Positions 13,338 through 34,791 of a DNA stretch of 53,890 bases are shown here, one piece after another. How positions within the stretch are numbered: position 1 is the stretch's first letter; every line of letters begins with the position of its first letter. Position numbers and translations under genes: made by a program. The notes below the pieces were generated by a model. It was not told where the DNA came from. It made no database searches and saw only the letters and a program-made list of their open reading frames with translations. Source of the DNA: Lachnospiraceae bacterium (GTDB taxonomy: Bacteria; Bacillota; Clostridia; Lachnospirales; Lachnospiraceae); NCBI GenBank assembly GCA_017525525.1, contig JAFXSQ010000022.1, positions 1 to 53,890 on the forward strand, read 5' to 3'.

Positions 13338-13385
13338 AAGGCAATGGCGTCTTAAAGAACAGTGGTTCTTTGAGGCGCCTTTTTT
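13338..13385 (+). promoter_or_regulatory. glnN leader: AATGGC antiterminator hairpin overlapping a terminator
   Basis: AAGGC-AATGGC-GTCTT (13338-13353) is a five-pair stem with an AxxGxx hexaloop, the second hairpin of an ANTAR target. Its loop and 3' arm form the 5' arm of a 15-pair terminator (13346-13360 with 13365-13379, then six T). The two structures exclude each other. A proper first hairpin is missing: the only candidate (TATAC/GTGTA with a seven-base loop TACGCGG) overlaps the -10 box, ahead of the predicted transcription start. Confidence 0.75.
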
Positions 13386-13462
13386 GTTTTTCTGAAGACA
13401 GCAACGGAGCTGTTCTGAATAATACCGAAACATTATATAATTAAGTAAAGGAGAATAAAGCT

Positions 13463-15565
13463 ATGGAAAAGAAGAATGTACCTGAACTTTTTGGTTCTCT
13501 CGTATTCGATGACAGAGTTATGAGAGCGAGACTTTCGGACAAGATATACAGCTCGCTTAAGAAAACCATCGACGAGAATGTAGGGCTGGAGGATGAGGTT
13601 GCGGACGCAGTTGCAACCGAGATGAGAGACTGGGCTATAGAGCACGGAGCAACTCACTTCACGCATTGGTTCCAGCCACTTACGGGAGTTACCGCAGAAA
13701 AGCATGACAGCTTTATCGCTCCTTCACCGGACGGCGGAGTGATCATGGAGTTCTCGGGCAAGGAGCTCATCAAGGGTGAGCCGGATGCTTCATCCTTCCC
13801 TTCGGGAGGCTTGAGAGCAACCTTCGAGGCAAGAGGCTACACAGCCTGGGACCCGACCTCCTATGCATTTATCAAGGATCACACGCTGTGCATACCGACG
13901 GCATTCTGCTCCTACTCGGGAGAAGCGCTCGATAAAAAAACCCCGCTTCTTCGTTCAATGCAGGCGCTTAACCGCCAGGCAAAGAGGATCCTGAAACTGT
14001 TTGGAAATGATGATGTAAAGTATGTAAGAACCAGCGTCGGTCCCGAGCAGGAGTATTTCTTAGTAGACAAGAAGGTGTTCGATCAGCGTCCTGACCTGAT
14101 TTACACCGGAAGGACACTTTTCGGAGCTATGCCTCCGAAGGGACAGGAGCTCGACGATCACTATTTCGGAGTTATCAAGCCGAGGGTATCCGCTTTCATG
14201 GAGGATTTGAACGACGAACTTTGGAAGCTCGGAATTCTTGCCAAGACCGAGCACAACGAGGTTGCTCCGGCACAGCATGAGTTAGCTCCGATTTTCTCCA
14301 CCACCAACGTGGCAACGGATAACAACCAGCTGATGATGGAGATCATGCAGAAGGTTGCCAAGAAGCACGGCATGGTATGCCTGCTTCATGAGAAGCCTTT
14401 CGCAGGGGTAAATGGTTCGGGTAAGCACAACAACTGGTCCATGGCGACCAACACCGGCGCGAACCTTCTCTCCCCCGGAGATACACCTTACCAGAATGCA
14501 CAGTTCTTACTGTTCTTATGTGCGGTAATCCAGGCAGTAGACGATTATCAGGATCTGCTTCGTCTCTCGGTTGCAACAGCCGGGAACGATCACAGATTAG
14601 GCGCAAATGAGGCGCCGCCGGCAATCATCTCCGTATTCCTCGGAGACGAGCTGACAGCAATCTTAAATGCGATAAAGACCGATACTCCTTATGAGGGTAC
14701 CGAGAAGGTGGTTATGAAGCTCGGCGTTCATGCAATACCGAGGTTCTCAAGGGATACCACAGACAGAAACAGAACGTCACCCTTCGCATTTACAGGTAAT
14801 AAGTTCGAGTTCAGATCACTCGGTTCTTCGAACAGCATAGCATGCTGCAACATCATGCTGAATGCAGCGGTTGCCGAGAGCTTAAAGCAGTATGCGGATG
14901 AGCTTGAGCAGTCAGATGATTTCGAAACCGCGCTTCATGACCTGATTAAGAGGGTTATAAAGGAACATGAGAGAATTCTCTTCAACGGCAACGGCTACGG
15001 TGAGGATTGGGTTAAGGAGGCAACCGAGGTCAGAGGACTTCTTAACTTAAAGACCACAGCGGATGCAATGCCTAAGCTGTTAGACAAGAAGAATGTCGAC
15101 ATGCTTACCGCTCATAAGGTATTTACCGAGACAGAGCTCAAGTCAAGATGTGACATCATGCTTGAGAATTACTGCAAGACGGTTAACATAGAAGGACTTA
15201 CCATGGTAGATATGGTCAGGAAGAATTACCTTCCGGCCATGGAAGGTTACCTTTACAGCTTAGCTAAGACCACATCACTTATGAAGTCGGTCAGCAACAA
15301 TGTAAAGTGCAACTACGAGGTCAGCACCATGGAGAGATTGTCAGAGCTTACCGATTATATACTCGAGGCTGTTGAGAAGCTTGAGACAGCGCTTGAGGAT
15401 CTTAAGAAGTATGACGACGTGATCAAGACTTCAGAGGCGATAAGGGATGATGTGCTTCCGAAGATGGATGTACTCAGAGGCTATGTGGATGAAGCAGAGA
15501 TGCTTACCTCCGAGCGTTACTGGCCGTTCCCGAGCTACGGCAAGATACTTTTCTCGGTTCAGTAA
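13463..15565 (+). CDS. glnN: glutamine synthetase type III
   Basis: A 700-residue type III glutamine synthetase, full length for the family. It makes glutamine from glutamate, ammonia and ATP in the cytoplasm, as a large oligomer. Family signatures include [10 protein letters not shown] and [20 protein letters not shown] near the N-terminus, [10 protein letters not shown] for metal binding, [26 protein letters not shown], and [14 protein letters not shown] late in the catalytic domain. The type III-specific C-terminal helical extension is present. AAGGAG lies ten bases before ATG 13463. Expression is expected to depend on the leader attenuator just upstream; amt follows, with no clear promoter between. 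Confidence 0.95.
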
Positions 15566-15575
15566 CCCACTCGGT

Positions 15576-15693
15576 CGTCACCGGGGACGGGGGTTGATGA
15601 CGAGAGACAAAAGATGTAAATGAATTTCAAAAGGAGCTTTTCCCACAATGGCGTGGACCTGACAGTGTTCTGTATGTGGGAGAAGCTCCTTTT
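15576..15693 (+). promoter_or_regulatory. amt leader: two-hairpin ANTAR antiterminator and terminator
   Basis: First hairpin CGTC-ACCGGG-GACG (15576-15589) and second hairpin CCAC-AATGGC-GTGG (15643-15656) are four-pair stems with AxxGxx hexaloops. The 5' arm of the second lies inside the 5' arm of a 14-pair terminator (15633-15646 with 15676-15689) followed by TTTT. Antiterminator and terminator cannot coexist. The first hairpin begins 11 bases after the glnN stop, so the same terminator also sets how much glnN transcript continues into amt. Confidence 0.8.
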
Positions 15694-15725
15694 CTGATTA
15701 AAATAACTACAAAGGAGAGATCATT

Positions 15726-17483
15726 ATGGATGAAATTATGAATGCTATGAACGGACAACTTTTTGCGGTATGGTTCCTTATCGGAGCTGCCCTGGTGTTC
15801 TGGATGCAGGCAGGATTTGCAATGGTCGAGTCAGGCTTTGCAAGAGCTAAGAACGCCGGAAATATACTTATGAAGAACCTTATGGACTTTTGTATAGGAT
15901 GTTGTGTATTCATCCTGATAGGATTTTCTTTTCTCCTCGGAGAAGATATGATCGGTCTTATCGGTAAGCCGGGCTTTGATATATTCACGGCCTATGAGAG
16001 CTTCGACTGGTCGAACTTTATATTCAACCTTGTGTTCTGTGCCACAACGGCAACCATAGTATCGGGTGCCATGGCAGAGAGAACCAAATTCTTAAGCTAC
16101 TGCGTATACTCAGGTATTATCTCAGCACTCATCTACCCGATCGAGGCACACTGGATCTGGGGCGGCGGCTGGCTTGCAGAGATGGGCTTCCACGATTTCG
16201 CGGGTTCATGTGCGATCCACATGGTAGGCGGTATCTCAGCTCTTATCGGCGCGAAGATGGTTGGTCCGCGTATCGGTAAATTCGAAAAAGACGAGAACGG
16301 CAAGGTGGTCAAGGTCAATGCCTTCCCCGGCCACAACATAGTAATCGGCGCCTTAGGTGTATTCATCCTCTGGCTCGGCTGGTACGGTTTCAACGGCGCA
16401 GCTTGTACCTCAGTTGATCAGCTTGCATCGGTATTCGTTACAACAACAATAGCTCCTTCAATCGCAACTGTAGTATGTATGATATTCACTTGGATCCGTT
16501 ACGGCAAGCCTGATGTATCCATGTGTCTCAATGCTTCACTCGCAGGTCTTGTAGCAATCACAGCTCCTTGTGATGTTACGGACGCATTTGGTTCAATCAT
16601 TATCGGCGCTGTAGCCGGTCTCCTCGTAGTATTCGGTGTATGGCTTCTTGATTACAAGCTTCATATAGATGATCCCGTCGGTGCGGTAGCAGTTCACTGT
16701 CTCAACGGTATCTGGGGAACAATAGCAACAGGACTTTTCGCAACAACTTCAGCTCCGGGCAACGACAGTGTAGTAGGTCTCTTCTACGGCGGCGGATTTG
16801 ATCAGCTTGGAAAGCAGCTCATCGGTTTTGCAGCAGTTGCAGGCTGGACAACAGTTACTATGATCATCGTATTCTTAGTTATTAAAGCAATCTTCGGACT
16901 TCGTGTAAGCGAGGAGGAAGAGCTTGAAGGACTTGATCCTACAGAGCATGGTCTTGCATCGGCTTATTCAGGATTTGCTATCATGGATATGTCAAATGCA
17001 GCAATGGTTGCAAATGAGAACACCAACCTCGGCGTAAGCGATTACGACAAGGCAAGCGAAGCTCAGAAGAATGCTTCGGTACCTGTAGTAAATGCATCGG
17101 AGGCCATGGCGGGAACCATACCCGACACGGGAATCCACAAGGTTGTCATCATTACAAAGCTTTCACGTTACGACAAGATAAAGAGAGCCTTAAACAACCT
17201 CGGTGTTACAGGTATTACCGTTACCCAGGTAAGCGGCTGCGGTATCGAGAAGGGTGCCGGTGAGATGTACCGTGGAGTTGAGATGGATATGACACTCCTT
17301 CCGAAGATTAAGCTTGAGGTAGTCGTAAGCGGCATACCTGTTGACAGTGTAATCGAGGCTGCAAAGAAGACACTGTACACCGGTAAAATCGGAGATGGTA
17401 AGATATTTGTCTATCCGGTTAGTCGGGTTGTCAAGATAAGAACAGGTGAAGAGAACTACGCGGCTCTTCAGGATGTAGAGTAA
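15726..17483 (+). CDS. amt: ammonium transporter fused to a PII signalling domain
   Basis: A 585-residue fusion. Residues 1-400 are an Amt channel with about eleven membrane segments. The channel motifs are FAGSCAIHMVGG, with the first pore His, and VAVHCLNGIWGTIATGLFA, with the second. After a 60-residue linker, residues 465-580 are a complete PII (GlnB/GlnK) domain: HKVVIITKLSRYDKIKRALN, GCGIEKGAGEMYRG and GKIGDGKIFVYPV, the ATP loop. In the T-loop the usual uridylylated Tyr (RGAEY in Escherichia coli) is Met (RGVEM). The channel thus carries its own gate, normally a separate protein, and uridylylation at that site is excluded. AAGGAGAG precedes ATG 15726. Confidence 0.95.
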   Translation: MDEIMNAMNGQLFAVWFLIGAALVFWMQAGFAMVESGFARAKNAGNILMKNLMDFCIGCCVFILIGFSFLLGEDMIGLIGKPGFDIFTAYESFDWSNFIFNLVFCATTATIVSGAMAERTKFLSYCVYSGIISALIYPIEAHWIWGGGWLAEMGFHDFAGSCAIHMVGGISALIGAKMVGPRIGKFEKDENGKVVKVNAFPGHNIVIGALGVFILWLGWYGFNGAACTSVDQLASVFVTTTIAPSIATVVCMIFTWIRYGKPDVSMCLNASLAGLVAITAPCDVTDAFGSIIIGAVAGLLVVFGVWLLDYKLHIDDPVGAVAVHCLNGIWGTIATGLFATTSAPGNDSVVGLFYGGGFDQLGKQLIGFAAVAGWTTVTMIIVFLVIKAIFGLRVSEEEELEGLDPTEHGLASAYSGFAIMDMSNAAMVANENTNLGVSDYDKASEAQKNASVPVVNASEAMAGTIPDTGIHKVVIITKLSRYDKIKRALNNLGVTGITVTQVSGCGIEKGAGEMYRGVEMDMTLLPKIKLEVVVSGIPVDSVIEAAKKTLYTGKIGDGKIFVYPVSRVVKIRTGEENYAALQDVE

Positions 17484-17506
17484 TATACAATTACATGACG
17501 CATAAT

Positions 17507-17592
17507 ACGCTGTCATATATCATGAGGTGAAGACTACCTCGACAAGAGTTTCTAAGTCTCGTCCGTAGTCACCATCATGATATATGCAGCGT
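17507..17592. repeat. long imperfect palindrome ahead of purF
   Basis: ACGCTG/CAGCGT, CATATATCATGA/TCATGATATATG, GGT/ACC and GACTAC/GTAGTC pair in order, with small bulges at T513, GAA529-531 and A574 (last three digits). An inner 27-base loop can itself pair (GAC/GTC, GAG/CTC). No T-tract follows, so it is not a terminator. It could be a small transposon-like insertion or a structured purF leader. It does not match the purine riboswitch consensus. Confidence 0.6.
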
Positions 17593-17636
17593 TTTGTGCG
17601 TTTGCAAAAAGACTACTAAACGATAGGAGAAACATT

Positions 17637-19013
17637 ATGGTAGATTGTGATAAGCTCCATGAAGAGTGCGGTGTGTTCGGGATATACTCGCCATCGGGGG
17701 CGCAGGTTGCGAAGGATATATATTACGGGTTGACGGCGTTGCAGCACCGTGGGCAGGAGTCTGCGGGCATGGCGGTGTCGGATACCCGGGGCGAGATGGG
17801 GAACATCTCCATGAAGAAGGAGATGGGACTTGTGAGTGAGGTATTCTCGAATGAGGATATCGAGAGACTGAAAGGCAATATCGGCGTCGGTCATGTGCGT
17901 TATTCCACGACCGGCGGAAGCAATGTAAGCAACGCCCAGCCCATAGCCATGAATTACATCAAGGGAAGCCTGGCGGTGGTCCATAACGGGAATATCGTGA
18001 ATGCCGAGGAAATAAAGCGTGAACAGCTATACCGCGGGCAGGCGCATTACACGACCTCGGACTCGGAGGTTTTGGCTTACGAGATAATCAGCGCCAGGGT
18101 GAACTCGGCTTCTATCGAGGAGGCTTGCATGCGCGCCTCCGCCAGGCTTAGGGGCGGCTTTGCAGTGATAGTCATGAGCCCGAGGAAGCTGGTAGCCATA
18201 AGGGATCCGTACGGGATAAAGCCACTCATACTCGGGAAGAGGGATGACACTTATATCATCGCGTCGGAGAGCGCAGCCATCAGCTCCGTGGGCGGTGAGG
18301 TGATAAGGGACATAGAGCCCGGTGAGCTTGTGTCGGTGACAAGCGAAGGCGTTAATTCAGACAAGAGCCTGTGTACCGGTAAGCGCGCGCACTGCATATT
18401 CGAGTACATTTACTTCGCAAGAAATGATTCGGTCATAGACGGCGTGGAGGTTCACGCCTCAAGGATAAATGCGGGTCGCGCCTTAGCGCAGAGGGACAAG
18501 GTGGATGCGGATATTGTTGCGGGAGTTCCGGACTCCGGGCTTGCGGCGGCCGAGGGATATGCGGTAGAGTCGGGCATCCCATTCAGGCTTATCTTTCACA
18601 AGAACAGCTATGTCGGACGAAGCTTTATCAAGCCCACGGACGAGGAGCGAAGAGCTGCGGTGGATATGAAGCTTGCGGTGATCAAGGAGACGGTAAAGGA
18701 CAAGAGGATAGTCCTGATCGACGATTCCATAGTGCGAGGGACCACCATGCGCAGGCTGATAGGCATGCTCAAGGGCGCCGGCGCAAAGGAGGTTCATGTG
18801 CGCATAAGCTCGCCGCCGTTCTTATATCCCTGTTACTACGGTACGGATGTTCACACGGCAAAGCAGCTTATCGCCTCGGAGCACTCCTATGAGGACATAC
18901 GGCAGAGCATAGGGGCGGATTCATTAAGCTATCTTAGGATAGAAGACTTTAAAACCATGGTCGGAGACCTGCCGCTCTGCACGGCGTGCTTCGACAACAA
19001 TTATCCGGTGTAG
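17637..19013 (+). CDS. purF: amidophosphoribosyltransferase
   Basis: A 458-residue glutamine PRPP amidotransferase, the first committed step of purine synthesis. A ten-residue propeptide precedes the nucleophilic Cys11 (HEECGVFG). HVRYSTTGGSN and the rest of the class II glutaminase follow. The PRTase domain has VLIDDSIVRGTT. Four cysteines in RAHCIFEY, PCYYGTD and LCTACF match the 4Fe-4S site of the Bacillus subtilis type. ATG 17637 lies seven bases after AGGAGA; the frame is open upstream from 17577 through the palindrome but without signal. Its position ties purine synthesis to glutamine supply. Confidence 0.95.
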   Translation: MVDCDKLHEECGVFGIYSPSGAQVAKDIYYGLTALQHRGQESAGMAVSDTRGEMGNISMKKEMGLVSEVFSNEDIERLKGNIGVGHVRYSTTGGSNVSNAQPIAMNYIKGSLAVVHNGNIVNAEEIKREQLYRGQAHYTTSDSEVLAYEIISARVNSASIEEACMRASARLRGGFAVIVMSPRKLVAIRDPYGIKPLILGKRDDTYIIASESAAISSVGGEVIRDIEPGELVSVTSEGVNSDKSLCTGKRAHCIFEYIYFARNDSVIDGVEVHASRINAGRALAQRDKVDADIVAGVPDSGLAAAEGYAVESGIPFRLIFHKNSYVGRSFIKPTDEERRAAVDMKLAVIKETVKDKRIVLIDDSIVRGTTMRRLIGMLKGAGAKEVHVRISSPPFLYPCYYGTDVHTAKQLIASEHSYEDIRQSIGADSLSYLRIEDFKTMVGDLPLCTACFDNNYPV

Positions 19014-19123
19014 GGATAACAGGAGGGGTTAACAGTCCCGCCGCAAAGCAGAGTTTTACTTAAAACCCTGTCTTGTGATGGGACTTTTTGTATGGTATTA
19101 TCTTGTGTAGAACAGGAGATGAA

Positions 19124-19185
19124 AAGATTCTTCGGGCTTTATTAAGCCCTCAGAATGACACATGTCACTCTGAGCAACAGGAAGA
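19124..19185. repeat. dispersed palindromic repeat (TTCGGGC family)
   Basis: AGATTCTTCGGGCTT, AAGCCCTCAGAATGACA and GTCACTCTGAGCAACAGGAAG resemble segments at 25308-25371, 34823-34948 and 39970-40163. Stems GGGCTT/AAGCCC and GACA/TGTC are visible. It lies 110 bases after purF. Confidence 0.6.
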
Positions 19186-19209
19186 GTTTTACTAAGGAGG
19201 GGGTAGCCT

Positions 19210-20385: not shown

Positions 20386-20397
20386 AACGAGAGGCCT

Positions 20398-20511
20398 ATG
20401 TTACTCGGTGAAATGCCGCTCAAGAAACTATCCAAGGAGGAAAAGATCATTCCTGCTGAGGAGAAGGTTGAGTATGAAGCTGAGGCTGTAAAAGAAAAGA
20501 AAAAGAAGTAA
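20398..20511 (+). CDS. possible 37-residue charged small protein
   Basis: ATG 20398 opens a short frame beginning MLLGEMPLKKLSKEEK and ending in AEAVKEKKKK before TAA at 20509. A weak GAGAGG lies just upstream. It follows the STAS-kinase stop by 12 bases and ends eight bases before the gltB -35 box. High Lys and Glu content and correct spacing make it credible, but no family is recognised. Confidence 0.4.
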   Translation: MLLGEMPLKKLSKEEKIIPAEEKVEYEAEAVKEKKKK

Positions 20512-20519
20512 AAATCAGC

Positions 20520-20547
20520 TTGACATTTCGATTAAAAGGCGTATACT
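20520..20547 (+). promoter_or_regulatory. gltB promoter
   Basis: TTGACA at 20520-20525 and TATACT at 20542-20547 with 16-base spacing. Transcription should begin near 20554, exactly where the first antiterminator hairpin begins. Confidence 0.8.
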
Positions 20548-20554
20548 TGTCTTG

Positions 20555-20637
20555 ATGTGCAAAGAGGCACGTATGTTTTTATATTGAATTTGAGGCAATG
20601 GCGCTTCAGGCTTTAAAAGCTTGAAGTGCCTTTTTTT
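20555..20637 (+). promoter_or_regulatory. gltB leader: two-hairpin ANTAR antiterminator and terminator
   Basis: First hairpin GTGC-AAAGAG-GCAC (20557-20570, two more pairs outside) and second hairpin GAGGC-AATGGC-GCTTC (20592-20607) both have AxxGxx hexaloops. GGCGCTTCA at 20600-20608 can instead pair with TGAAGTGCC at 20622-20630, followed by seven T, as an intrinsic terminator. This is the cleanest ANTAR target in the window and lies 115 bases before the gltB start. Confidence 0.85.
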
Positions 20638-20682
20638 ATGCGCAGGGGCACCGAGATGTAGATGTCAGCTAAAGCTGACCGG
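20638..20682. repeat. dispersed palindromic repeat, copy 2
   Basis: Identical over 45 bases to 11483-11527. Here an outer stem GGGGCACC/GGTGCCCC (20645-20652 with 20681-20688) is complete. A separate hairpin CGAACAGGT/ACCTGTTCG follows at 20694-20724. Both lie in the gltB leader between the terminator and the ribosome-binding site. Confidence 0.85.
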
Positions 20683-20751
20683 TGCCCCGCGCGCGAACAG
20701 GTTTCGACTTCGTCGACCTGTTCGAAAGAAGTTTTGAAGGAGGAACATGAG

Positions 20752-23700
20752 ATGAAACTTGAAGAGGTTCAGCAGCGTGGCCTTTATAATCCGCAGTTTG
20801 AGCATGATAACTGTGGTATAGGCGCGATAATCAGAGTGGACGGAAGGGCTGACCACGGAATAGTGGCAGATGCTCTTTCAATAGTCGAGAACTTAGAGCA
20901 CAGAGCAGGTAAGGATGCGGAAGGAAAGACCGGTGACGGTGTAGGTATACTTACGCAGATCCCGCACAAGTTCTTAAAGAAGAAGCTTAAGTCCGAAGGC
21001 GTGACACTTCCCGAGAAGAGGGGCTACGGCGTAGGCGTGTTCTTCTTCCCTGCAGACGAATTAAAGCTCAGACAGGCTATGTCCATGTTCGAGATCATCG
21101 TGAGAAAGGCCGGCCTTTCGATCATTTGCTGGAGAAAGGTGGACATCGCTCCTGAGGTTTTAGGCAGCAAGGCAAGAGAGTGCATGCCGGATATCAGACA
21201 GGTATTCATCGAGCGTCCTTCGGGCTGCGAAACCGACCTCGACTTTGACAGAAAGCTTTATCTTATAAGAAGAGAGTTTGAGCTCTCAAATGTGGACACC
21301 TACGTTCCTTCTCTTTCCTGCAGGACCATAGTTTATAAAGGCATGTTCCTTGTGGGACAGCTTCGTACCTTCTTTACCGACTTAAACGACAAGGATTATG
21401 AGTCTGCCATAGCCATGGTACACTCGAGATTTTCAACAAATACAAACCCGAGCTGGAACCGCGCTCACCCGAACCGTCTTATGGTTCACAACGGCGAGAT
21501 TAATACCATAAAGGGAAATGCGGACAAGATGCTTGCCCGTGAGGAGACCATGCATACCAATGCGTTCTCCGAGGAGGACATGACCAAGGTGCTTCCGGTT
21601 ATCTTAAGCAGCGGTTCGGACTCGGCTATGCTGGATAACACCCTTGAGTTTTTATACATGAGCGGCATGGAGCTTCCGCTTGCGGCCATGATCGCAATCC
21701 CCGAGCCCTGGGCTCACAACGAGACCTTGTCCCGTGAGGAGAGGGACTTCTACCAGTACTACGCAACCATGATGGAGCCCTGGGACGGCCCTGCTTCCAT
21801 CCTTTTCTCCGACGGAGATGTGATGGGCGCAATCCTTGACAGGAACGGCCTGAGGCCTTCGAGATACTATGTGACCGACGACGGAAGGCTTATCCTTTCA
21901 TCGGAGGTTGGAGTGCTCGAGATAGACGAGAGCCACATTTTGAAGAAGGAGAGGTTGCACCCCGGCAAGATGCTTCTTGTGGATACGATCAACAAGAAGA
22001 TTATGTATGATGAGGAAATAAAAGAAAAATATGCCAAGAAGGAGCCGTACGGTGAGTGGCTTGACAGCAACCTGCTTGAGCTTCGCGATATCAAGATTCC
22101 GAACATCAAGGTTCCTTCATATAATGATGAGCAGAGAAAGAGACTCTTAAAGGCCTTCGGCTACAGTTACGAGAATTACTACAATGGCATAAGAAATATG
22201 GCATTGAACGGTATAGAGCCGATAGGCGCGATGGGCGTGGATATCCCGCTTGCCGTTCTTTCGGACAAGTACCAGCCGTTGTTCTACTACTTTAAGCAGC
22301 TCTTCGCGCAGGTTACAAACCCGCCGATTGATGCCGAGAGAGAGAAGATTGTTACATCGAGATCTGTCTATGTGGGCAAGCACGGCAACCTCTTAGAGGA
22401 AAAGCCGGAGAACTGCCACGTATTAAAGATACACAATCCGATACTTACTGACCTTGACCTCCTTAAGATCGCGAACATGAAGAAGGACGGCTTCAAGGTA
22501 GCCAAGGTTTCAACCCTTTACTACAAGGGCACTCCGATGAAGAGAGTTATAGATCATCTTTTTGTAGAGGTTGACAGGGCCTACAAGGAGGGCGCAAGCA
22601 TACTGATCCTTTCCGACAGAGGCGTGGACGAAAACCATGTTGCCATTCCCTCACTGCTTGCAACCGCAGCGGTTCACAAGCATCTTGTAGACACAAGAAA
22701 ATGTACCGCCATGTCACTCATTTTAGAGACAGGCGAGCCCAGAGAGGTGCACCATTTTGCGACGCTTCTCGGTTTTGGAGCTTCGGCAGTCAATCCGTAT
22801 CTTGCACATTCTGCAATCGGCAAGCTTGTGGATGAAGGATTGCTTGAGAAGGATTATTATGCAGCTGTTGAAGATTATGACTATGCCATTTTAAACGGCA
22901 TAGTCAAGATTGCTTCGAAGATGGGAATCTCGACCATACAGTCATATCAGGGCTCGAAGATATTTGAGGCCATAGGTATAGCCGAGGATGTGATAAATGA
23001 ATACTTTACGGGCACGGTAAGCCGCGTGGGCGGTATCGGCCTCGATGATATAGGACGTGCTACGGATGAGCAGCACAGCAGAGCGTTTGATCCCCTCGGA
23101 CAGAATACCGACCTTGAGCTTACGGCTGTCGGAAGACACAAGGCAAGAAGCCAGGGCGAGAACCACCGTTACAATCCGAAGACTATACACATGCTTCAGC
23201 TTGCAACAAGGATAGGCAGCTATGAGAGGTTCAAGGATTACACCGCCATGGTCGATGCAGAGGAGACCGGCTACTTGAGAAGCCTTATGGATTTCAATTA
23301 TCCGGAGGCCGGAATACCGATAGATGAGGTTGAGAGTGCGGCAGAGATAGTTAAGAGATTTAAGACCGGCGCCATGTCCTACGGCTCAATATCCGAGGAG
23401 GCTCACCAGACCTTAGCCATAGCCATGAATCATCTTCACGGTAAGTCAAACAGCGGTGAGGGCGGTGAAAGCGATGAGAGAATTGCTTCGGCCGGTACGG
23501 ACCACGACAGAAGCTCAGCTATAAAGCAGGTGGCGAGCGGACGCTTCGGCGTAACAAGCAGATACTTAGTAAGCGCAAAGGAAATCCAGATAAAGATGGC
23601 CCAGGGCGCAAAGCCCGGTGAGGGCGGACATCTTCCGGGCAGGAAGGTGTATCCGTGGATAGCGAAGACAAGACACTCAACTCCGGGCGTGAGCTTAATC

Positions 23701-25296
23701 TCTCCGCCGCCGCACCATGACATCTATTCTATAGAGGATTTGGCGCAGCTTATCTACGACCTTAAGAATGCGAACAAGAATGCAAGAATATCCGTAAAGC
23801 TTGTGTCGGAGGCGGGAGTGGGAACCGTTGCGGCAGGTGTTGCAAAGGCCGGAGCGCAGGTAATACTTGTGTCGGGCTACGACGGAGGAACCGGCGCGGC
23901 GCCGCTTTCATCGATACACAATGCGGGACTTCCCTGGGAGCTCGGACTTGCGGAGACACACCAGACACTCCTTGCCAACGGCCTCAGAAATCAGGTTGTT
24001 ATAGAGACGGACGGAAAGCTTATGAGCGGACGTGACGTGGCTATAGCTGCAATCCTCGGCGCGGAGGAGTTCGGCTTTGCAACAGCTCCCCTTGTAACTA
24101 TGGGATGTGTGATGATGAGGGTATGCCACCAGGATACCTGCCCGATGGGCGTTGCCACACAGAACCCTGAGCTTAGAAAACGTTTTATCGGAAAGCCTGA
24201 GTATGTGGAGAACTTCATGCTTTTTGTAGCAGAGGAGTTGAGGGAGTACATGGCTAAGCTCGGCGTGAGAAGCATAGACGAGCTTGTGGGAAGAACAGAC
24301 CTGATTAAGGTTAAGGACGAATTAAATGATAACGAGGAGAGGCTTGACTTAAAGCGCATCCTTATGGATGTATCAAAGATAGACCGCGAGCAGCAGACCT
24401 TCCATCCGGAGCTTGCCTATGACTTTAAGCTTGAGACCACGAAGGACGAGAGCGTGCTGTTAAAGTCGAAGGAGATAAAGCAGGCTATAGAGAAGGGCAC
24501 GAACGCAACGGTTGATATCAGGCTTTCAAATACAGACAGAACCTTCGGAACCCTGCTCGGCGCACAGATTACCAGAAAGCATCCAGAGGGCATGAGTGAG
24601 GACGCCATCACCGTGAACTGCACGGGAGCCGGCGGACAGAGCTTCGGCGCATTTATCCCCAAGGGACTTACGCTTGATTTGACCGGTGACAGCAACGACT
24701 ACTTCGGTAAGGGACTTTCGGGCGGAAAGCTTATAGTCAAGGCTCCGGCTAACGCAGCCTACGATCCCGAGGAGAATATCATAATCGGAAATGTAGCGCT
24801 CTACGGCGCAACCTCCGGTGAGGCCTTCATAGCAGGTATGGCAGGCGAGCGTTTCTGCATAAGGAACTCCGGCGCAACGGCAGTTGTCGAGGGTGTCGGA
24901 GAACACGGATGCGAGTACATGACCGGCGGTATAGCGGTTATCTTAGGACCGACGGGCAAGAACTTTGCGGCGGGTATGAGCGGCGGAGTTGCTTACGTGC
25001 TCGACGATGAGAACAAGCTCTACAGGAACCTGAACAAGCAGCTTGTGGACATGGAGAGCGTGGAGCTTAAGAAAGATAAAGAGGACTTAAAGACTATCAT
25101 AGAAAAGCATGTGGCTGCGACAGGCTCAGCAAAGGGAAAGAAGATACTTGAGAATTTTGACGAATACGTTAGACACTTCAAGAAGATCATCCCTGCGGAT
25201 TACAAGGAGATGATGAAGCTCATCGCCAAGAACGAAGAGCAGGGTATGAGCCGCGAGCAGGCACAGATAGAAGCGTTTACTGAGTTAGTGGGTTAG
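20752..25296 (+). CDS. gltB: glutamate synthase large subunit
   Basis: A 1,514-residue NADPH-type glutamate synthase alpha subunit, full length. It takes the amide nitrogen of glutamine and transfers it to 2-oxoglutarate. A 20-residue propeptide precedes the nucleophilic Cys21 (HDNCGIGAI). The class II glutaminase, the central domain, and the FMN synthase domain (GEGGESDERIASAG, AKPGEGGHLPGRKV) follow in order. The 3Fe-4S cysteines are in CHQDTCPMGVA, and a GXGXG-rich beta-helix forms the end. ATG 20752 has AAGGAGG eight to fourteen bases upstream. The ANTAR leader before it should make expression respond to nitrogen state. Confidence 0.95.
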   Translation: MKLEEVQQRGLYNPQFEHDNCGIGAIIRVDGRADHGIVADALSIVENLEHRAGKDAEGKTGDGVGILTQIPHKFLKKKLKSEGVTLPEKRGYGVGVFFFPADELKLRQAMSMFEIIVRKAGLSIICWRKVDIAPEVLGSKARECMPDIRQVFIERPSGCETDLDFDRKLYLIRREFELSNVDTYVPSLSCRTIVYKGMFLVGQLRTFFTDLNDKDYESAIAMVHSRFSTNTNPSWNRAHPNRLMVHNGEINTIKGNADKMLAREETMHTNAFSEEDMTKVLPVILSSGSDSAMLDNTLEFLYMSGMELPLAAMIAIPEPWAHNETLSREERDFYQYYATMMEPWDGPASILFSDGDVMGAILDRNGLRPSRYYVTDDGRLILSSEVGVLEIDESHILKKERLHPGKMLLVDTINKKIMYDEEIKEKYAKKEPYGEWLDSNLLELRDIKIPNIKVPSYNDEQRKRLLKAFGYSYENYYNGIRNMALNGIEPIGAMGVDIPLAVLSDKYQPLFYYFKQLFAQVTNPPIDAEREKIVTSRSVYVGKHGNLLEEKPENCHVLKIHNPILTDLDLLKIANMKKDGFKVAKVSTLYYKGTPMKRVIDHLFVEVDRAYKEGASILILSDRGVDENHVAIPSLLATAAVHKHLVDTRKCTAMSLILETGEPREVHHFATLLGFGASAVNPYLAHSAIGKLVDEGLLEKDYYAAVEDYDYAILNGIVKIASKMGISTIQSYQGSKIFEAIGIAEDVINEYFTGTVSRVGGIGLDDIGRATDEQHSRAFDPLGQNTDLELTAVGRHKARSQGENHRYNPKTIHMLQLATRIGSYERFKDYTAMVDAEETGYLRSLMDFNYPEAGIPIDEVESAAEIVKRFKTGAMSYGSISEEAHQTLAIAMNHLHGKSNSGEGGESDERIASAGTDHDRSSAIKQVASGRFGVTSRYLVSAKEIQIKMAQGAKPGEGGHLPGRKVYPWIAKTRHSTPGVSLISPPPHHDIYSIEDLAQLIYDLKNANKNARISVKLVSEAGVGTVAAGVAKAGAQVILVSGYDGGTGAAPLSSIHNAGLPWELGLAETHQTLLANGLRNQVVIETDGKLMSGRDVAIAAILGAEEFGFATAPLVTMGCVMMRVCHQDTCPMGVATQNPELRKRFIGKPEYVENFMLFVAEELREYMAKLGVRSIDELVGRTDLIKVKDELNDNEERLDLKRILMDVSKIDREQQTFHPELAYDFKLETTKDESVLLKSKEIKQAIEKGTNATVDIRLSNTDRTFGTLLGAQITRKHPEGMSEDAITVNCTGAGGQSFGAFIPKGLTLDLTGDSNDYFGKGLSGGKLIVKAPANAAYDPEENIIIGNVALYGATSGEAFIAGMAGERFCIRNSGATAVVEGVGEHGCEYMTGGIAVILGPTGKNFAAGMSGGVAYVLDDENKLYRNLNKQLVDMESVELKKDKEDLKTIIEKHVAATGSAKGKKILENFDEYVRHFKKIIPADYKEMMKLIAKNEEQGMSREQAQIEAFTELVG

Positions 25297-25371: not shown

Positions 25372-25388
25372 ATTGGAGGAATACTATA

Positions 25389-26873: not shown

Positions 26874-26905
26874 TGCACCAGGGTTATAAATAATCGGAGG
26901 ATACT

Positions 26906-28513: not shown

Positions 28514-28537
28514 TCTTAGTACTCGGAGGAACACACA

Positions 28538-29638
28538 ATGGAGGTTTTTAAGAAAAAACTGATCTTAGAGGACGGAAGCGAATATATCGGATACGGCTTC
28601 GGCGCTGAAACCGATGCCGTATGCGAGATAGTTTTCAATACATCAATGGTCGGATACCAGGAGATAGTATCCGATCCTTCATACACATATCAGGCAGTTG
28701 TGATGTCCTATCCCCTTATCGGTAACTACGGTATCACGGATGAGGATTTCGAGAGCAGGAGTGTTGCGATTGGAGGGCTTATCGTGCGCGATTTGAACGA
28801 TGATCCCTCTAATTTCAGGTTTACGAGAACCTTAAATGAACTCCTGACCGACTACGGCGTGCCGGGTGTGTACGGGATAGATACAAGAAAGCTTGTGAGA
28901 AGCATAAGGGATATAGGTTCAAGAAGAGTACTGATTACCGGCGAGGACACAAGCGTCGAAGAAGGCTTGAAGATAATAGCCGATACCCCCATAAAGCATG
29001 ATGCGGTATCACAGGTAAGCTCAAAAAAGAAATGGTACGCCCGCACCGCAAACCACCGTTTCAATGTGGTTGCGATAGATTGCGGCATGAAGACGAACAT
29101 AGTCAGGATGCTCAATAAGCACGGCTGCAATGTAACGGTTGTGCCTTATGATACGAGCTGCGAGGACATACTTGCCATGAAGCCCGACGGAGTATTTATC
29201 TCCAACGGTCCGGGCGATCCCGAGGATGTTCCCTGCGTGATTGAAGCCCTGAAGGGGTTGAGAGGAAAGCTGCCGTTGTTCGGAATCTGTCTCGGACATC
29301 AGCTTATAGCTCTTGCCTGCGGCGCCAAGACCTACAAGCTTAAGTTCGGACACAGAGGCGGAAATCATCCGGTAAAGGATGTGAGAACCGGCAAGATAGA
29401 GATTACCAGCCAAAACCACAGCTATGCGGTAGACGATAAGTCGGTTGAGGGCACGGGACTCAAGGTATCGCACATCAATCTGCTTGACGACACGGTAGAG
29501 GGACTTTATTCCGACGAGGAGCTCATATTCTCGGTGCAGTACCATCCGGAGAGCGCTCCCGGTCCGCAGGACAGTGAATACTTATTCGATACATTTACAG
29601 GCAACATGATTAAAGCAGCTGCAGGGAAAGTGAGGTGA
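28538..29638 (+). CDS. carA: carbamoyl-phosphate synthase small subunit
   Basis: A 366-residue glutaminase subunit that supplies ammonia to CarB for carbamoyl phosphate, the precursor of pyrimidines and arginine. The N-terminal CPSase domain has LEDGSEYIGYGFGAE and FNTSMVGYQEIVSDPSY. The class I amidotransferase domain carries GICLGHQLIALACG with the nucleophilic Cys and QYHPESAPGP with the catalytic His-Glu. It starts 24 bases after pyrG and ends six bases before carB. Confidence 0.95.
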   Translation: MEVFKKKLILEDGSEYIGYGFGAETDAVCEIVFNTSMVGYQEIVSDPSYTYQAVVMSYPLIGNYGITDEDFESRSVAIGGLIVRDLNDDPSNFRFTRTLNELLTDYGVPGVYGIDTRKLVRSIRDIGSRRVLITGEDTSVEEGLKIIADTPIKHDAVSQVSSKKKWYARTANHRFNVVAIDCGMKTNIVRMLNKHGCNVTVVPYDTSCEDILAMKPDGVFISNGPGDPEDVPCVIEALKGLRGKLPLFGICLGHQLIALACGAKTYKLKFGHRGGNHPVKDVRTGKIEITSQNHSYAVDDKSVEGTGLKVSHINLLDDTVEGLYSDEELIFSVQYHPESAPGPQDSEYLFDTFTGNMIKAAAGKVR

Positions 29639-29644
29639 GTCCGG

Positions 29645-32600
29645 ATGCCGAAGAGAACTGACTTAAAGAAGATACTGGTTATAGGCTCGGGCCCCATCGT
29701 TATAGGCCAGGCCGCAGAGTTTGACTACGCGGGAACACAGGCTTGCCTTGCCTTGAAGGAGGAGGGCTACGAGGTGCTCCTCGCCAACTCCAACCCGGCG
29801 ACGATCATGACCGACAACTCCATAGCCGACAAGGTCTACATGGAGCCCCTTACATTAAAATATCTTGCAAGGATAATCAGATACGAGAGACCGGATGCGA
29901 TAGTTCCGGGAATAGGCGGACAGACGGGCCTCAACCTGGCCATGCAGCTCTATGATAAAGGAGTGCTTGCGGAGTGCGAGACCGAGCTTCTCGGAACGGA
30001 CGCTGAGAGTATAAGGGCTGCCGAGGACAGAGAGGGCTTCAAGGAGCTCTGCGAAAGCATAGGCGAGCCGGTGGTTCCCTCGGAGATAACATACTCCGTT
30101 GAGGAGGGACTTACGGCAGCAGAAAAGATTGGCTATCCGGTCATCCTTCGCCCTGCTTACACCTTGGGCGGTACCGGCGGCGGCTTTGCTTACAACGAGG
30201 AAGAGATGCGCGACATGATGAAGAACGCCCTCTCCCTTTCGCCGGTTCATCAGGTACTGGTAGAGAAGAGTATAAAGGGATATAAGGAGATAGAGTACGA
30301 GGTAATCCGTGACGCCAACGATACGGCTATCGCGGTCTGCAACATGGAGAACCTTGATCCGGTCGGCATACACACCGGCGACTCGATAGTCGTTGCGCCG
30401 AGCCAGACGCTTACCAACAGGGAGTACCACATGTTGAGAGACAGTGCTTTGAGGATAATCAGGGCGCTTAAGGTAAAGGGTGGCTGCAACGTGCAGTTTG
30501 CGCTCGACCCCGAGTCATTCTCCTACTATGTGATAGAGGTTAACCCCAGAGTTTCAAGGTCTTCGGCCCTTGCTTCAAAGGCAACAGGCTACCCCATCGC
30601 AAGGGTATCCGCGAAGATCGCTGTAGGCATGAACTTAGACGAGATTATGCTTGCAAATACTCCGGCCTGCTTCGAACCCTCGCTCGACTATGTGGTTACG
30701 AAGATGCCGAGATTCCCCTTCGACAAGTTCACCCTCGCTTCCAACACACTTTCAACACAGATGAAGGCCACAGGTGAGGTTATGAGCGTCGGAAGGACAT
30801 TTGAGGAAAGCTTGCTTAAGGCAATCAGTTCACTAGAGGACGGAAAAAACCATATCCACCTTGAAAAGTTCGATGTGAAAAGCTTATCGGACAAGCCCGA
30901 GCCCGAGTGCAGGCAGGAGGCAATTGATAAGCTGCTCAAATATATCGAGGAAGGAACGGACGACAGGATCTACGCAATCTCTCAGCTTATGTGGCTCGGC
31001 GTGGATCACCAGACTATCTGCGACAGAACAAAGATAGATATGTTCTTCCTCGACAAGATAAAGAAGATAGTTGATTTCGAGAGAGTAATAGAGGAGAAGA
31101 AGGGTGCCAAGCTTGATAAAGAAACCCTTTACGAGGCAAAGCGCATGGGCTTCTCCGATTCCTACATAGCCGAGCTGCTTGAAAGGGATGAGGAGGAGAT
31201 AAGGCTTCTTCGCGCCGAGTACGGTATCCGTCCGGTATTCAAGATGATTGACACCTGCGCGAGCGAATTTGAGAGCTACGTTCCTTACTTCTATTCAACC
31301 TATGAGGATGAAAACGAGTCCATAGTATCGGACAAGAAGAAGATCATAGTCTTAGGCTCCGGCCCGATAAGGATAGGCCAGGGTGTTGAGTTCGATTATT
31401 CGACCGTACACGCGGTTAGGACCATAAGAGAGAGCGGATATGAGGCGATAGTCATAAACAACAACCCTGAGACCGTTTCCACTGATTACACGACGGCAGA
31501 TAAGCTCTACTTCGAGCCGCTTACGGTCGAGAGGATCATGGACATAATCGATTACGAGAAGCCTGAAGGAGTGATAGTTACACTCGGAGGCCAGACTGCG
31601 GTCAACCTTGCCGAGCCCCTTGCAAAGCGAGGCGTGAAGATAGTCGGAACCGGTGTCGAGGCTATAGACAAGGCTGAGGACAGAGACCTCTTCGAGGGTG
31701 TGATAAGAGAACTCGGCGTTCCGCACCCGGCAGGCGAGGCCGTGACCGATATAGAGAGCGGTGTCCGCGTTGCAGAAAAGATTGGCTATCCCGTACTGGT
31801 TCGCCCGAGCTTCGTCTTAGGCGGAAGGGCCATGGAGATAGTCGCAAATGAGACGATGCTCAGGCATTACCTTAAGACCGCCGTTGAGGTGGATACGGAC
31901 AAGCCTGTTTTGGTAGATAAATACGTAGTCGGAAAAGAGGTCGAGGTCGATGCGGTGTGTGACGGTGAGGAGGTCTTCCTTCCGGGCATAATGGAGCTTG
32001 TGGAGAGGACGGGAGTTCACTCAGGAGACAGCACCAGCGTGTATCCGCCGTTTTCCATTTCCGATAAGGTAAGACAGACTATCGTGGAATACACGAGAAA
32101 GATTGGTTTAGGGATCGGTATCCTCGGGCTTTACAACATACAGTACATAGTCGACAAGGATGACAGCGTGTACATAATCGAGGTCAATCCGAGAGCTTCA
32201 AGAAGCGTGCCGTTCTTATCGAAGTCTACAGGCTTCTCGCTTGTCGACATAGCGGTTAAGGCAATGCTCGGCATAAGCTTGAAGGAGCAGGGCATAACCG
32301 ACCTGATTCCGCCGGACAAGAACTTCTGGTATGTAAAGGCACCGGCCTTCTCGTTTGCAAAGCTTAACGGAATGGATGCTTACCTTTCACCGGAGATGAA
32401 GTCTACGGGAGAGGCAATAGGCTATGACAGGAAGCTCAAGCGCGCGTTCTACAAGGCACTTGAGGCATCGGGCATAAAGATGAAGGGTTACGGAACGGTT
32501 ATGGTAACCCTGGCCGACGAGGATAAGGAGGAGGCGTTGCCTTTGGTAAGACGCTTCTACGAGCTCGGCTTCAACATAGAGGCGACGATCGGTACGGCAG

Positions 32601-32866
32601 AGTTCTTAAAGGAGCGCGGCATAAGGACGAGAGTCCGCGGCAATGCTCAGGACAGAAGCACCGAGGTTCTAAAGTCTATCAAGGCGGGTTACGTGAGCTA
32701 CATAATCAACACAAGAGCCATACTCTCGGGTATACATTACGAGGATGGAGTGGCCATTCGTCAGTGCGCCGTGGCCAACGGAGTAACGATGTTTACCTCA
32801 TTAGACACAGTGAGGATTCTACTGGATGTGCTCGAGGAGATAACGCCCGAGATTTCACCAATATAG
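29645..32866 (+). CDS. carB: carbamoyl-phosphate synthase large subunit
   Basis: A 1,073-residue protein, full length, with two homologous ATP-grasp halves. The first has [20 protein letters not shown] and the second [20 protein letters not shown], one for bicarbonate and one for carbamate phosphorylation. The oligomerisation region lies between. A C-terminal MGS-like allosteric domain follows (about residues 930-1070: [37 protein letters not shown]). ATG 29645 follows closely after carA, with a GTGAGGTGAG ribosome-binding site that overlaps the carA stop. Confidence 0.95.
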
Positions 32867-32877
32867 CAGTAAATTAC

Positions 32878-33006
32878 GAATTCAGCGCATGAAAAAACAA
32901 AAGTTTATTCGAGGCGCGACGGGAAAGTATTTCAGGTGGCATTTCAAAGCCGCCTGAAATACTTATCCCAGGCAGCCGAGCCGTATACTTCATAGGCGCT
33001 GAATTC
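32878..33006. mobile_element. MITE-like palindromic element in front of glnA
   Basis: The outer arms GAATTCAGCGC-ATGAA and TTCAT-AGGCGCTGAATTC pair with a two-base bulge. Inside, AAGTATTTCAGGTGGC pairs with GCCGCCTGAAATACTT (one G-T), extended by GGGA/TCCC. The pentamer ATTAC stands directly outside both ends (32873-32877 and 33007-33011), as a target-site duplication would. A TATACT at 32984-32989 inside the right arm could serve as a -10 box for the gene downstream. A structured leader RNA is the alternative reading. Confidence 0.65.
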
Positions 33007-33026
33007 ATTACTATAAAGGAGTTAAC

Positions 33027-34202
33027 ATGGAATATACATTAAAGGAAGTCCTCGAGTACATCGAGGAGGAGGATGCTAAGTTCATAAGGCTGGCCTTCAG
33101 GGATGCGTACGGCGTTCAGAAGAACATATCCGTTATGCCCGGCGAGATTGCGAAGGCATTTGAGGACGGTATCCCGATAAATGCAAGCGAGATAGCGGGT
33201 TTCGAGGGAAGCACGCTTTCCAAGCTCTTCTTAAAGCCGGATCCCTCTACTATGGCTGTGCTGCCGTGGAGACCGGACAGCGGAAGAGTTGTTAGGATGT
33301 TCTGCGACGTCTATACCTACGACGGCGTGCAGTTTGCCTGCGATACAAGAGGCATCCTCAAGGCTGCGGAGAAGAAGGCAAAGGATGCAGGCATCAATTT
33401 CAAGTTCGGTTCTGAGTCCGAGTTTTATCTCTTCAACAAGGATGACTACGGCAACCCGACGGACATCCCTTACGACAATGCGGGCTACATGGACATTGCG
33501 CCCTTGGACAGAGGCGAGAACATAAGAAGAGAGATTTGCCTTACCATAGAGAAGATGGGGCTCATACCCGAAAGGTCGCACCACGAGAGAGGTCCCGGAC
33601 AGAATGAGGTGGACTTCCACTACGGCAAGCCTCTTAAGGCAGCAGACCAGATGACAACCTTTAAGATGGTTGTGTCTACCGTGGCAGACAGGAACGGACT
33701 TTACGCCGATTTTTCGCCCATGCCCCTTCCGGGCAAACCGGGCAACGGCTATCACATCAACATTTATACAGAGGACAGTGAGGGCAACGACTTAGGCGAG
33801 TATGTGGCAGCGGGTATTTTAGACAAGATTAGGGAGATGACAATCTTCTTAAATCCTATGGATTCGTCCTATGCGCGCTTTGGCAACGGCAATGCCCCCG
33901 ACAGGATCAACTGGTCCTCGGGGAATTCCAGTACACTGATGCACATTGATAGTCTGTACGGAAAAAGAAGGGTTGACCTTCGCTCTCCGGACGCACTTTC
34001 AAATCCGTATCTCGTGTACGCGCTTTTGATAAATGCCGGACTGTATGGTATAGAGAACAAGCTCTCGCTTCCGCCCGAGCTTGAGGATGAGGGAGCTTAT
34101 CTCCCGCAGTCAAAGAAGGAGGCTGGCAGCATAGCCCTTACCAGTGATTTTATAAAAGGCATAATCCCTGCAGATATCATAAACAGGTATGTGAAGCAGT
34201 AA
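33027..34202 (+). CDS. short, divergent GlnA-type glutamine synthetase-like protein
   Basis: A 391-residue member of the type I glutamine synthetase fold, about 50 residues shorter than usual. Kept motifs include SESEFYLF (131-136), SHHERGPGQNEVDF (184-197) and GNGYHINIY (239-247). The stretch that normally reads RNRSALIR is GNSSTLMH (299-306), losing two nucleotide-binding arginines, and the metal-ligand Glu of IEVR is Asp (VDLR, 316-319). It may have low activity, another substrate or a sensing role; a canonical GlnN is encoded nearby. It lies one base ahead of the ANTAR gene, the same order as glnA-nitR in clostridia. AAGGAG precedes ATG 33027. Confidence 0.8.
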   Translation: MEYTLKEVLEYIEEEDAKFIRLAFRDAYGVQKNISVMPGEIAKAFEDGIPINASEIAGFEGSTLSKLFLKPDPSTMAVLPWRPDSGRVVRMFCDVYTYDGVQFACDTRGILKAAEKKAKDAGINFKFGSESEFYLFNKDDYGNPTDIPYDNAGYMDIAPLDRGENIRREICLTIEKMGLIPERSHHERGPGQNEVDFHYGKPLKAADQMTTFKMVVSTVADRNGLYADFSPMPLPGKPGNGYHINIYTEDSEGNDLGEYVAAGILDKIREMTIFLNPMDSSYARFGNGNAPDRINWSSGNSSTLMHIDSLYGKRRVDLRSPDALSNPYLVYALLINAGLYGIENKLSLPPELEDEGAYLPQSKKEAGSIALTSDFIKGIIPADIINRYVKQ

Positions 34203-34203
34203 G

Positions 34204-34791
34204 ATGGCAAAGAGCGATTTAAGACAGTATTCTGTGCTTATAGTCTCGGGCACGGAACAATTTAATATGATCGCCTCGGGGGCTTTGCCGGGGAATCGCT
34301 TTTCGGTAAAGGAGATAAGGAAGAGCGCTTCCATGGCAAGAAGAGAACTGCTTGACCGTGATTACGACATCGTGATCATACAGACGCCGTTGCCTGATGA
34401 GCTGGGTATAGAACTGGCTATAGATGCTGCGGTAAAGCATTCAGCGCTTTGCCTGCTCGTAACACCTGCGGAGATATTTGATGAAGCCGTGGACAACCTG
34501 GTTGACTACGGTGTATTTGTGATGTCTAAGCCCGTAGACAAAATGAGACTTGGCCGGGGCATAAAGCATCTTTTGGCCGTGCGTGACAAGATAGAAGAGG
34601 AGAGGCGAAAGAGCCGCAAGCTGGAGGAAAAGCTGGCGGAGGAAAAGCTGGTCTCAAGGGCCAAGTGCCTTCTTATAGAGAAAAAGCACATGACCGAGGA
34701 GGAAGCCCACAGGTTCATAGTTAAGCAGGCCATGGATCTTTCACTTTCCAAGAAAAGAGTTGCGGAGAATGCAATCGACGACTTGGATTAA
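34204..34791 (+). CDS. ANTAR-domain RNA-binding antiterminator (NitR-like)
   Basis: A 195-residue protein. Residues 1-125 have a receiver-like fold, but the strand that should end in the phosphorylated Asp reads YDIVIIQTPL, with Gln in its place, so it is a pseudo-receiver. A charged coiled coil (about 128-150) leads into an ANTAR domain (about 148-193: RAKCLLIEKKHMTEEEAHRF, then MDLSLSKKRVAENAI). ANTAR dimers bind pairs of small AxxGxx-hexaloop hairpins and stop terminators forming. Such hairpins lie ahead of glnN, amt and gltB. One base separates it from the GlnA-like gene, which suggests the two proteins act together. Confidence 0.9.
   Translation: MAKSDLRQYSVLIVSGTEQFNMIASGALPGNRFSVKEIRKSASMARRELLDRDYDIVIIQTPLPDELGIELAIDAAVKHSALCLLVTPAEIFDEAVDNLVDYGVFVMSKPVDKMRLGRGIKHLLAVRDKIEEERRKSRKLEEKLAEEKLVSRAKCLLIEKKHMTEEEAHRFIVKQAMDLSLSKKRVAENAIDDLD

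Follow-up and report, generated by a model that had tools for sequence, protein, structure and literature searches.

Nitrogen-assimilation genes and their leaders

The stretch of DNA analysed here (the window, 53,890 nucleotides of contig JAFXSQ010000022.1 from a Lachnospiraceae bacterium) carries three genes of nitrogen assimilation, each preceded by a hairpin with the loop AATGGC, together with a gene for an ANTAR-domain protein. All lie on the forward strand. The gene glnN, for a type III glutamine synthetase (GS), spans 13463..15565 (Pfam GSIII_N, 8.6e-79). It is followed at 15726..17483 by amt-PII, a fusion of an ammonium transporter with a P-II domain (PF00909, 1e-120; PF00543, 5.1e-23). 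The large subunit of glutamate synthase, recognized by a Pfam scan, is encoded by gltB at 20752..25296; its probable start at 20752 was chosen from a GGAGG-like site, in place of the 20662 given in the list of open reading frames. The ANTAR gene lies at 34204..34791, as the earlier note on this DNA had placed it, and its product consists of a receiver without the aspartate, a long helix and an ANTAR domain (PF03861, E 7.8e-15; 54.8 bits against a curated cut-off of 27.3). This was the only PF03861 match in a profile scan of the genome (3.19 Mb, 99.7% complete, 75 contigs). Beside it, at 33027..34202, is a glnA-like gene for a type I GS-like protein without the flap glutamate and two conserved arginines, a candidate sensor partner. 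Since gltB, gltD, pyrG, carA, carB, the glnA-like gene and the ANTAR gene all share one orientation, the ANTAR gene may itself also be under the control of the gltB leader.

Examination of the three leaders showed the AATGGC hairpins described in the earlier note, each overlapping an intrinsic terminator. At glnN, a promoter (TTGACA-17-TATACT, 13298..13326) ends 11 nt 5′ of the stem of a single hexaloop hairpin, AAGGC-AATGGC-GTCTT (13338..13353), a putative antiterminator. The terminator was called at 13346–13379 and, with its run of T, occupies 13346..13385. At gltB, the promoter TTGACA-16-TATACT (20520..20547) precedes the hairpin GAGGC-AATGGC-GCTTC (20592..20607) and a terminator called at 20600–20630, which with its run of T spans 20600..20637. 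In both leaders the 5′ arm of the terminator begins at loop position 4, so that the G at this position is free in the loop when the hexaloop forms and base-paired when the terminator forms. At amt, the hairpin CCAC-AATGGC-GTGG (15643..15656) shares its 5′ strand with the terminator, which was found by folding and has coordinates read off the sequence (15631..15691). Because bases are common to both structures, hexaloop and terminator are mutually exclusive. Predicted folding energies were −26.6 kcal/mol for the terminator and −14.5 with the hexaloop forced at glnN, −36.6 and −28.8 at amt, and −32.5 and −25.9 at gltB. These protein-free folds fit a default off state without proving it.

The earlier note had also described a second, upstream hairpin at amt and at gltB, and both exist. 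The amt hairpin, with the loop ACCGGG at 15580, spans 15575..15590 and had been proposed as the upstream partner (P1) of the amt hexaloop. The gltB hairpin, with the loop AAAGAG at 20561, spans 20555..20572; it has 6 bp, begins 7 nt 3′ of the −10 box, near the predicted 5′ end of the transcript, and is separated from the AATGGC hairpin by a linker of 16–19 nt. The check that the earlier note had suggested, a search of the Rfam covariance models, left all three leaders unmatched at E up to 5; no ANTAR-target family appeared in its output, and whether the library contains one was not checked.

A widespread class of terminator-coupled hexaloops

The heptamer AATGGCG alone is not rare, with 10 occurrences in the window against 7.3 expected. 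Hexaloops overlapping terminators were therefore of interest as structures, and were counted, whatever their loop letters, in the window and at the loci of 80 amt homologues, those that scored best among at least 592 matches. The nearest amt relatives were from Lachnospiraceae and Eubacterium genomes, many of them from the rumen. Among 211 distinct terminator-overlapping hexaloops from the 81 sequences, 94 had A at position 1 and G at position 4 (A1/G4), and each of the 15 other combinations at these positions was found in only 4–17. Before repeated terminator calls were merged, the count was 102 of 219; in this unmerged count the commonest loops were AAAGGC (46), AAGGGC (12) and AATGGC (11). 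The window contributed its glnN and amt leaders, the gltB leader being left out because of the G-U limit of the detector. Hairpins of the class seen in the window are widespread in Clostridia. A strict detector recovered the element from 39 of the 77 amt leaders; at least one leader with an element visible by eye (L035) was missed.

Tandem arrays of two or three hexaloop-terminator units, spaced about 60–120 nt apart, are present in some leaders (L173, L196, L032, L050 and L111). A pattern scan for further leaders in the genome gave 35 forward and 32 reverse candidates against 25 and 20 in the control; by eye only those of glnN and gltB were convincing. Four other terminator-like candidates were set aside on account of their stems of 2, 3, 2 and 4 pairs, the 4-pair one being a weak but possible case.

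A covariance model (R1), in which pairing was specified for the terminator alone, was derived from 42 elements. Matches to R1 lie mostly upstream of glnN, and also of amt, gltB, purF and pyrG. Conservation of the hexaloop stem was analysed in an alignment (A2) of 67 R1 matches, including nine antisense ones, in which the 5′ strand of the hexaloop was not modelled as paired. It was relied on in preference to alignment A1, whose elements had been chosen for pairing and whose covariation is partly circular. In A2, 93.2% of stem cells were paired, against 81.7% after shuffling, and 38 cells were changed on both sides, against 13.4. The latter count exceeded all 500 shuffles, as did the covariation score. 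The nine antisense matches come from L144, L145, L156, L158, L160, L171, L176, L184 and L186. Some terminators may thus offer a hexaloop-like structure on either strand.

The leader element occurs together with the ANTAR gene

In the genus, ANTAR scored above cut-off in 24 of 37 genomes. R1 matched at E < 1e-4 in all 24 of these and in 1 of the 13 others (p 7e-9). The sole exception, G092, is 71% complete; its amt leader has the element, with no ANTAR detected. A hexaloop-terminator precedes amt in 18 of the 18 ANTAR-positive genus genomes in which amt was found. Two near-complete genomes, G077 (99%, one contig) and G084 (98%), have amt with neither an ANTAR gene nor the leader element. Apart from the 3 of 20 ANTAR-positive genus genomes in which gltB has an element of its own, there are at least seven others in which the element lies 5′ of pyrG and gltB follows some 2 kb later in the same orientation.

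The survey was extended to 293 genomes of the class with completeness of at least 90%, in which ANTAR was found at E ≤ 0.001 in 156 and R1 at E ≤ 0.01 in 111. With R1 at E ≤ 1e-3, ANTAR was present in 85 of 93 R1-positive and in 71 of 200 R1-negative genomes (Fisher p 8e-21); at E ≤ 1e-5 it was present in 41 of 41. Among the matches listed with both places, R1 lay no more than 15 kb from the ANTAR gene in 28 of 56 genomes, that of the window included. Thus, comparison of genomes gives good support to the part of the earlier note's reading in which glnN, amt-PII and gltB form a regulon under the one ANTAR protein detected in this genome. The part in which that protein recognizes paired hexaloops was not supported, as described below.

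A number of observations weigh against an ANTAR switch at these leaders. In the class, 8 of the 93 genomes with R1 at E ≤ 1e-3 had no detected ANTAR, as did 10 of the 111 with R1 at E ≤ 0.01. Of the 156 ANTAR-positive genomes, 71 had no R1 match at E ≤ 1e-3. In the genus, relaxing R1 to E ≤ 0.01 brought in two weak matches (G061 and G066), so that 3 of the 13 genomes without ANTAR were positive. The p-values overstate the association because related genomes are not independent, and the training and test loci of R1 have some species in common, with identical elements. R1 did not match the amt leader of the window's own genome. A hexaloop leader of gltB itself was found in just 3 of 20 ANTAR-positive genus genomes. 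Finally, alignment A2 did no better than chance in the number of pairs with changes on both sides (252 of 500 shuffles) and of pair types (215 of 500).

Probably one hexaloop rather than two

The established ANTAR target, described in PMC3369931 and PMC8934654, is a pair of hexaloops. In the eut leaders of E. faecalis the linker measures 5–12 nt, and induction fell strongly when it was 14 nt (PMC3369931). The earlier note had assumed such pairs in this regulon.

Analysis of the individual leaders gave little sign of them. The glnN leader has no upstream hexaloop partner. At amt, the ACCGGG hairpin is about 52 nt from the hexaloop and overlaps a 20-bp dispersed repeat (15584–15603), of which the genome has 11 copies when up to 2 mismatches are allowed, against 0 for the control; the hairpin is probably not a functional P1. 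A plausible P1 partner exists only at gltB, with a long linker, and this P1 was absent from the two closest of the gltB leaders examined.

P1-type A1/G4 hexaloops at a linker of 2–15 nt were then counted in 139 distinct upstream regions. With stems of at least 3 pairs they numbered 6 of 116, against 7.1 expected from base composition; for stems of 4 pairs or more the figures were 4 of 47 and 2.9. Since upstream A1/G4 hexaloops are not enriched, there appears to be no general P1 partner, and recognition through paired hexaloops is not supported for these leaders.

The position of the promoter points the same way. A survey of 67 R1 matches from 55 of the 58 loci L141–L198 left 58 sense matches once the nine antisense ones were removed; the loci left out were L153, from the window's own genome, and L166 and L167, weak matches from ANTAR-negative genomes. 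A promoter score of at least 9 of 12 was found in 53 of the 58, and in 47 the −10 box ends 8–12 nt 5′ of the stem, a spacing that the window's glnN leader fits. Stems of at least 4 pairs were found in 57 of 58. All 58 have A1/G4, a figure to be read with the loop letters being part of R1 itself. Transcription generally starts 6–8 nt 3′ of the −10 box, which would place the 5′ end only a few nt before the hairpin.

Some evidence counts against a single hexaloop. With stems of at least 5 pairs, P1-type hexaloops numbered 4 of 23 against 1.4 expected, so that a minority of leaders may be truly paired. In the work on EutV, both hexaloops were required for antitermination in vivo (PMC8934654), and a longer linker abolished antitermination in vitro (PMC8934654, PMC3369931).

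The ANTAR protein

The structure of the ANTAR protein was predicted from an input of seven sequences (mean predicted local distance difference test score, pLDDT, 87.8; predicted template modelling score, pTM, 0.66). The predicted fold matched EutV from the EutV–RNA complex (6ww6_B) with a template modelling (TM) score of 0.74 and AmiR (1qo0_D) with 0.67. For sequence comparison, the window protein was aligned with those from 35 of a second set of 58 loci, the rest having no tblastn match or failing a length filter. The 36 rows comprise 33 ANTAR proteins and 3 plain response regulators.

The phospho-acceptor aspartate was found in none of the 33 ANTAR receivers, and the window protein has glutamine at the site. 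The only three aligned sequences with the aspartate are the plain response regulators. Because none of these ANTAR proteins has this residue, control by aspartyl phosphorylation or a phosphorelay is unlikely. No kinase was found among the neighbouring genes scanned. Of the residues of EutV that contact the hexaloop (R142, K143, K147, Tyr164 and Met172), the last four correspond to K148, R152, H169 and M177 in the window protein. The equivalent of Met172 is methionine in 32 of the 33 ANTAR proteins, the other being truncated, and that of Tyr164 is histidine in 31 and phenylalanine in 2.

Less favourable to an EutV-like contact with RNA are the glutamate (E147) that stands in the window protein at the equivalent of EutV R142, and the sites of K143 and K147, which hold lysine or arginine in just 22 and 18 of the 36 aligned rows. 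Likewise, fold matches to a further EutV entry (6wsh_A) and to the other AmiR chain (1qo0_E) were lower, both at 0.55.

The glutamine-synthetase-like neighbour

A type I GS-like gene adjoins the match of the ANTAR search in 50 of 54 loci (of the 58 drawn on for the protein alignment, L137–L140 were left out). Among the four unpaired loci, one is truncated where its contig stops, and the other three are in genomes without a PF03861 match. Alignment of the window's GS-like protein to 7tdp showed that its type I active site is not complete: the flap glutamate is replaced by asparagine, the arginine of the NRS motif by serine and that of the IRIP motif by histidine, residues with active-site roles in GS. 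The protein scored 264 bits against a GlnA cut-off of 429. The flap glutamate was absent in 23 of 51 aligned partners. In seven loci, all of this genus (L129–L134 and L136), about 17 residues across the flap region are missing, probably as the result of one event. Retention of the gene pair despite loss of conserved GS residues suggests, as a hypothesis, that the GS-like partner has a sensing role. Against this stand the 28 of 51 partners that keep the flap glutamate, several of them canonical-looking.

In the gap 5′ of the glnA-like gene (32867–33026), a long imperfect hairpin without a run of T was seen by eye.

A possible nitrogen switch and its alternatives

Taken together, the data suggest the following switch. 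For glnN, and by analogy for amt and gltB, transcription would begin at an ordinary promoter and by default stop at the intrinsic terminator of the leader. A hairpin of 4–6 bp with the loop AAnGGn, located at the transcript's 5′ end or close to it, would compete with the 5′ arm of the terminator. When nitrogen is short, the ANTAR protein (34204–34791) would bind this single hexaloop and hold the hairpin, so that polymerase reads through. We consider a single-hexaloop ANTAR switch of this kind likely. The type I GS-like protein (33027–34202) might sense glutamine or the nitrogen state and hold or release the ANTAR protein in the manner of AmiC and AmiR, a step that we judge to fall just short of an even chance. 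The scheme as a whole, in which a single 5′-end hexaloop is read by a phosphorylation-independent ANTAR protein that takes its signal from a co-encoded GS, turned pseudoenzyme sensor in several lineages, with catalysis left to the type III enzyme that it controls, is put forward tentatively.

The alternative that shares most with this scheme retains the same RNA half and differs in the partner: the GSI-like protein would be just a co-regulated enzyme, and the receiver would be controlled by PII, by a metabolite or by abundance alone. The canonical-looking partners with an intact flap glutamate and the presence of an amt-PII fusion within the regulon speak for it. It accounts less readily for a pair kept in 50 of 54 loci though 23 of 51 partners lack the flap glutamate, and for the seven partners of this genus without some 17 flap-region residues. 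We regard it as a serious possibility, if one we lean somewhat against. A canonical dual-hexaloop element, P1 followed by P2, finds its best case at gltB, where the 6-bp AAAGAG hairpin lies directly past the −10 box with the AATGGC hairpin following as P2; in 3 of 77 amt leaders the strict detector found two A1/G4 hexaloop-terminator units, and the excess of P1-like hexaloops with at least 5 pairs agrees with this. Nevertheless, the promoter leaves no space for a P1 in most of the 58 leaders, upstream hexaloops with at least 3 pairs are no commoner than expected, the amt P1 overlaps a dispersed repeat and would have a linker of about 52 nt, and the two closest gltB leaders have none. We judge this arrangement unlikely.

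It is also conceivable that the leaders are attenuators read by another RNA-binding factor or a small ligand, the ANTAR gene being merely co-inherited with nitrogen genes. The 10 of 111 R1-positive class genomes (E ≤ 0.01) in which ANTAR went undetected speak for this. However, the loop signature is the A1/G4 that ANTAR proteins require (PMC3369931), two near-complete species without ANTAR have amt without the leader, and the leaders match no Rfam family. Another reader is improbable. Lastly, the structures could be ordinary intergenic intrinsic terminators, the hexaloop being a by-product of terminator sequence. Such terminators are common between genes, and the amt element does lie directly 3′ of glnN, but each other combination of letters at loop positions 1 and 4 is 5.5–23 times rarer, and most R1 elements lie directly 3′ of consensus promoters and track the presence of ANTAR. 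This explanation is very unlikely. The single-hexaloop switch is thus preferred in what follows.

Relation to known systems

The mechanism appears to be of a known kind. ANTAR control of genes for glutamine, ammonium transport, PII and glutamate synthase has been published, with a dual-hairpin motif (PMC3369931). The present system resembles EutV/EutW and their eutP-type targets in Enterococcus faecalis in its ANTAR domain, its A1/G4 hexaloop, a hairpin that excludes an intrinsic terminator, and the predicted fold of the protein. It differs in having one hexaloop near the 5′ end where eutP has two with a 5–12 nt linker, in its receiver without phospho-acceptor aspartate, and in a GS-like gene in place of a kinase among the neighbours scanned. 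Set against the dual-hexaloop target RNA as defined (Ramesh 2012), the three leaders have the A1/G4 loop and the exclusion of a terminator, and they do not have a second hexaloop at a short linker of 5–12 nt. AmiC–AmiR of Pseudomonas aeruginosa offers a parallel for the protein half: a pseudo-receiver ANTAR protein similar in predicted fold (1qo0_D), histidine at the stacking position and a co-encoded candidate sensor. There the partner, AmiC, binds amides; here it is GS-like, and the RNA has a single hexaloop.

A link between glnA and nitR is known in clostridia, and in Bacillus feedback-inhibited GS partners TnrA and GlnR. The latter are similar in that GS serves as a nitrogen sensor controlling a regulator, and differ in that an active GS acts there on a DNA-binding regulator, whereas here the target is RNA and some of the GS proteins look inactive. 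NitR and other GS-linked clostridial ANTAR genes share with the window an ANTAR gene beside a glutamine synthetase and a regulon of nitrogen assimilation. The nitR gene of C. acetobutylicum appears in PMC4676874, as does an ANTAR gene within a GS-GOGAT cluster of C. thermocellum.

What appears to be new is the single 5′-terminal hexaloop, the receiver without aspartate and the GS-like partner. In a literature search, with most subscription papers outside its coverage, no description was found of single 5′-terminal, terminator-coupled hexaloop leaders, or of an aspartate-less ANTAR receiver paired with a GS without catalytic residues. EutV is reported to bind one hexaloop at a time, both still being considered necessary for antitermination (PMC8934654). 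The same paper cites an extra single hexaloop in EutX RNA and stem-loops of M. tuberculosis that in some cases depart from the dual motif. These resemble the present leaders as ANTAR targets outside the dual-hexaloop rule; they differ in that EutX is a sequestering RNA and the M. tuberculosis loops lie over ribosome sites or in 5′ untranslated regions, while the leaders here overlap intrinsic terminators. That structure paper (2022; PMC8934654) calls for work on single hexaloops, expects them where the time limit set by a transcribing polymerase is absent, and leaves their reach in ANTAR regulation open. A large natural set of terminator-coupled leaders with apparently one hexaloop makes this question directly testable. 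The system is also a concrete candidate for a nitrogen switch in Lachnospiraceae and related Clostridia, and suggests a new use of GS, as sensor for an RNA regulator.

Other features of the window

Between amt-PII and purF (17500–17600) there is a long hairpin with a run of T, at which the scan listed no A1/G4 hexaloop hairpin. In some relatives, R1 elements precede purF. On the minus strand, positions 1914–1960 gave a strong Rfam match to the DUF3800-XI RNA (69.1 bits).

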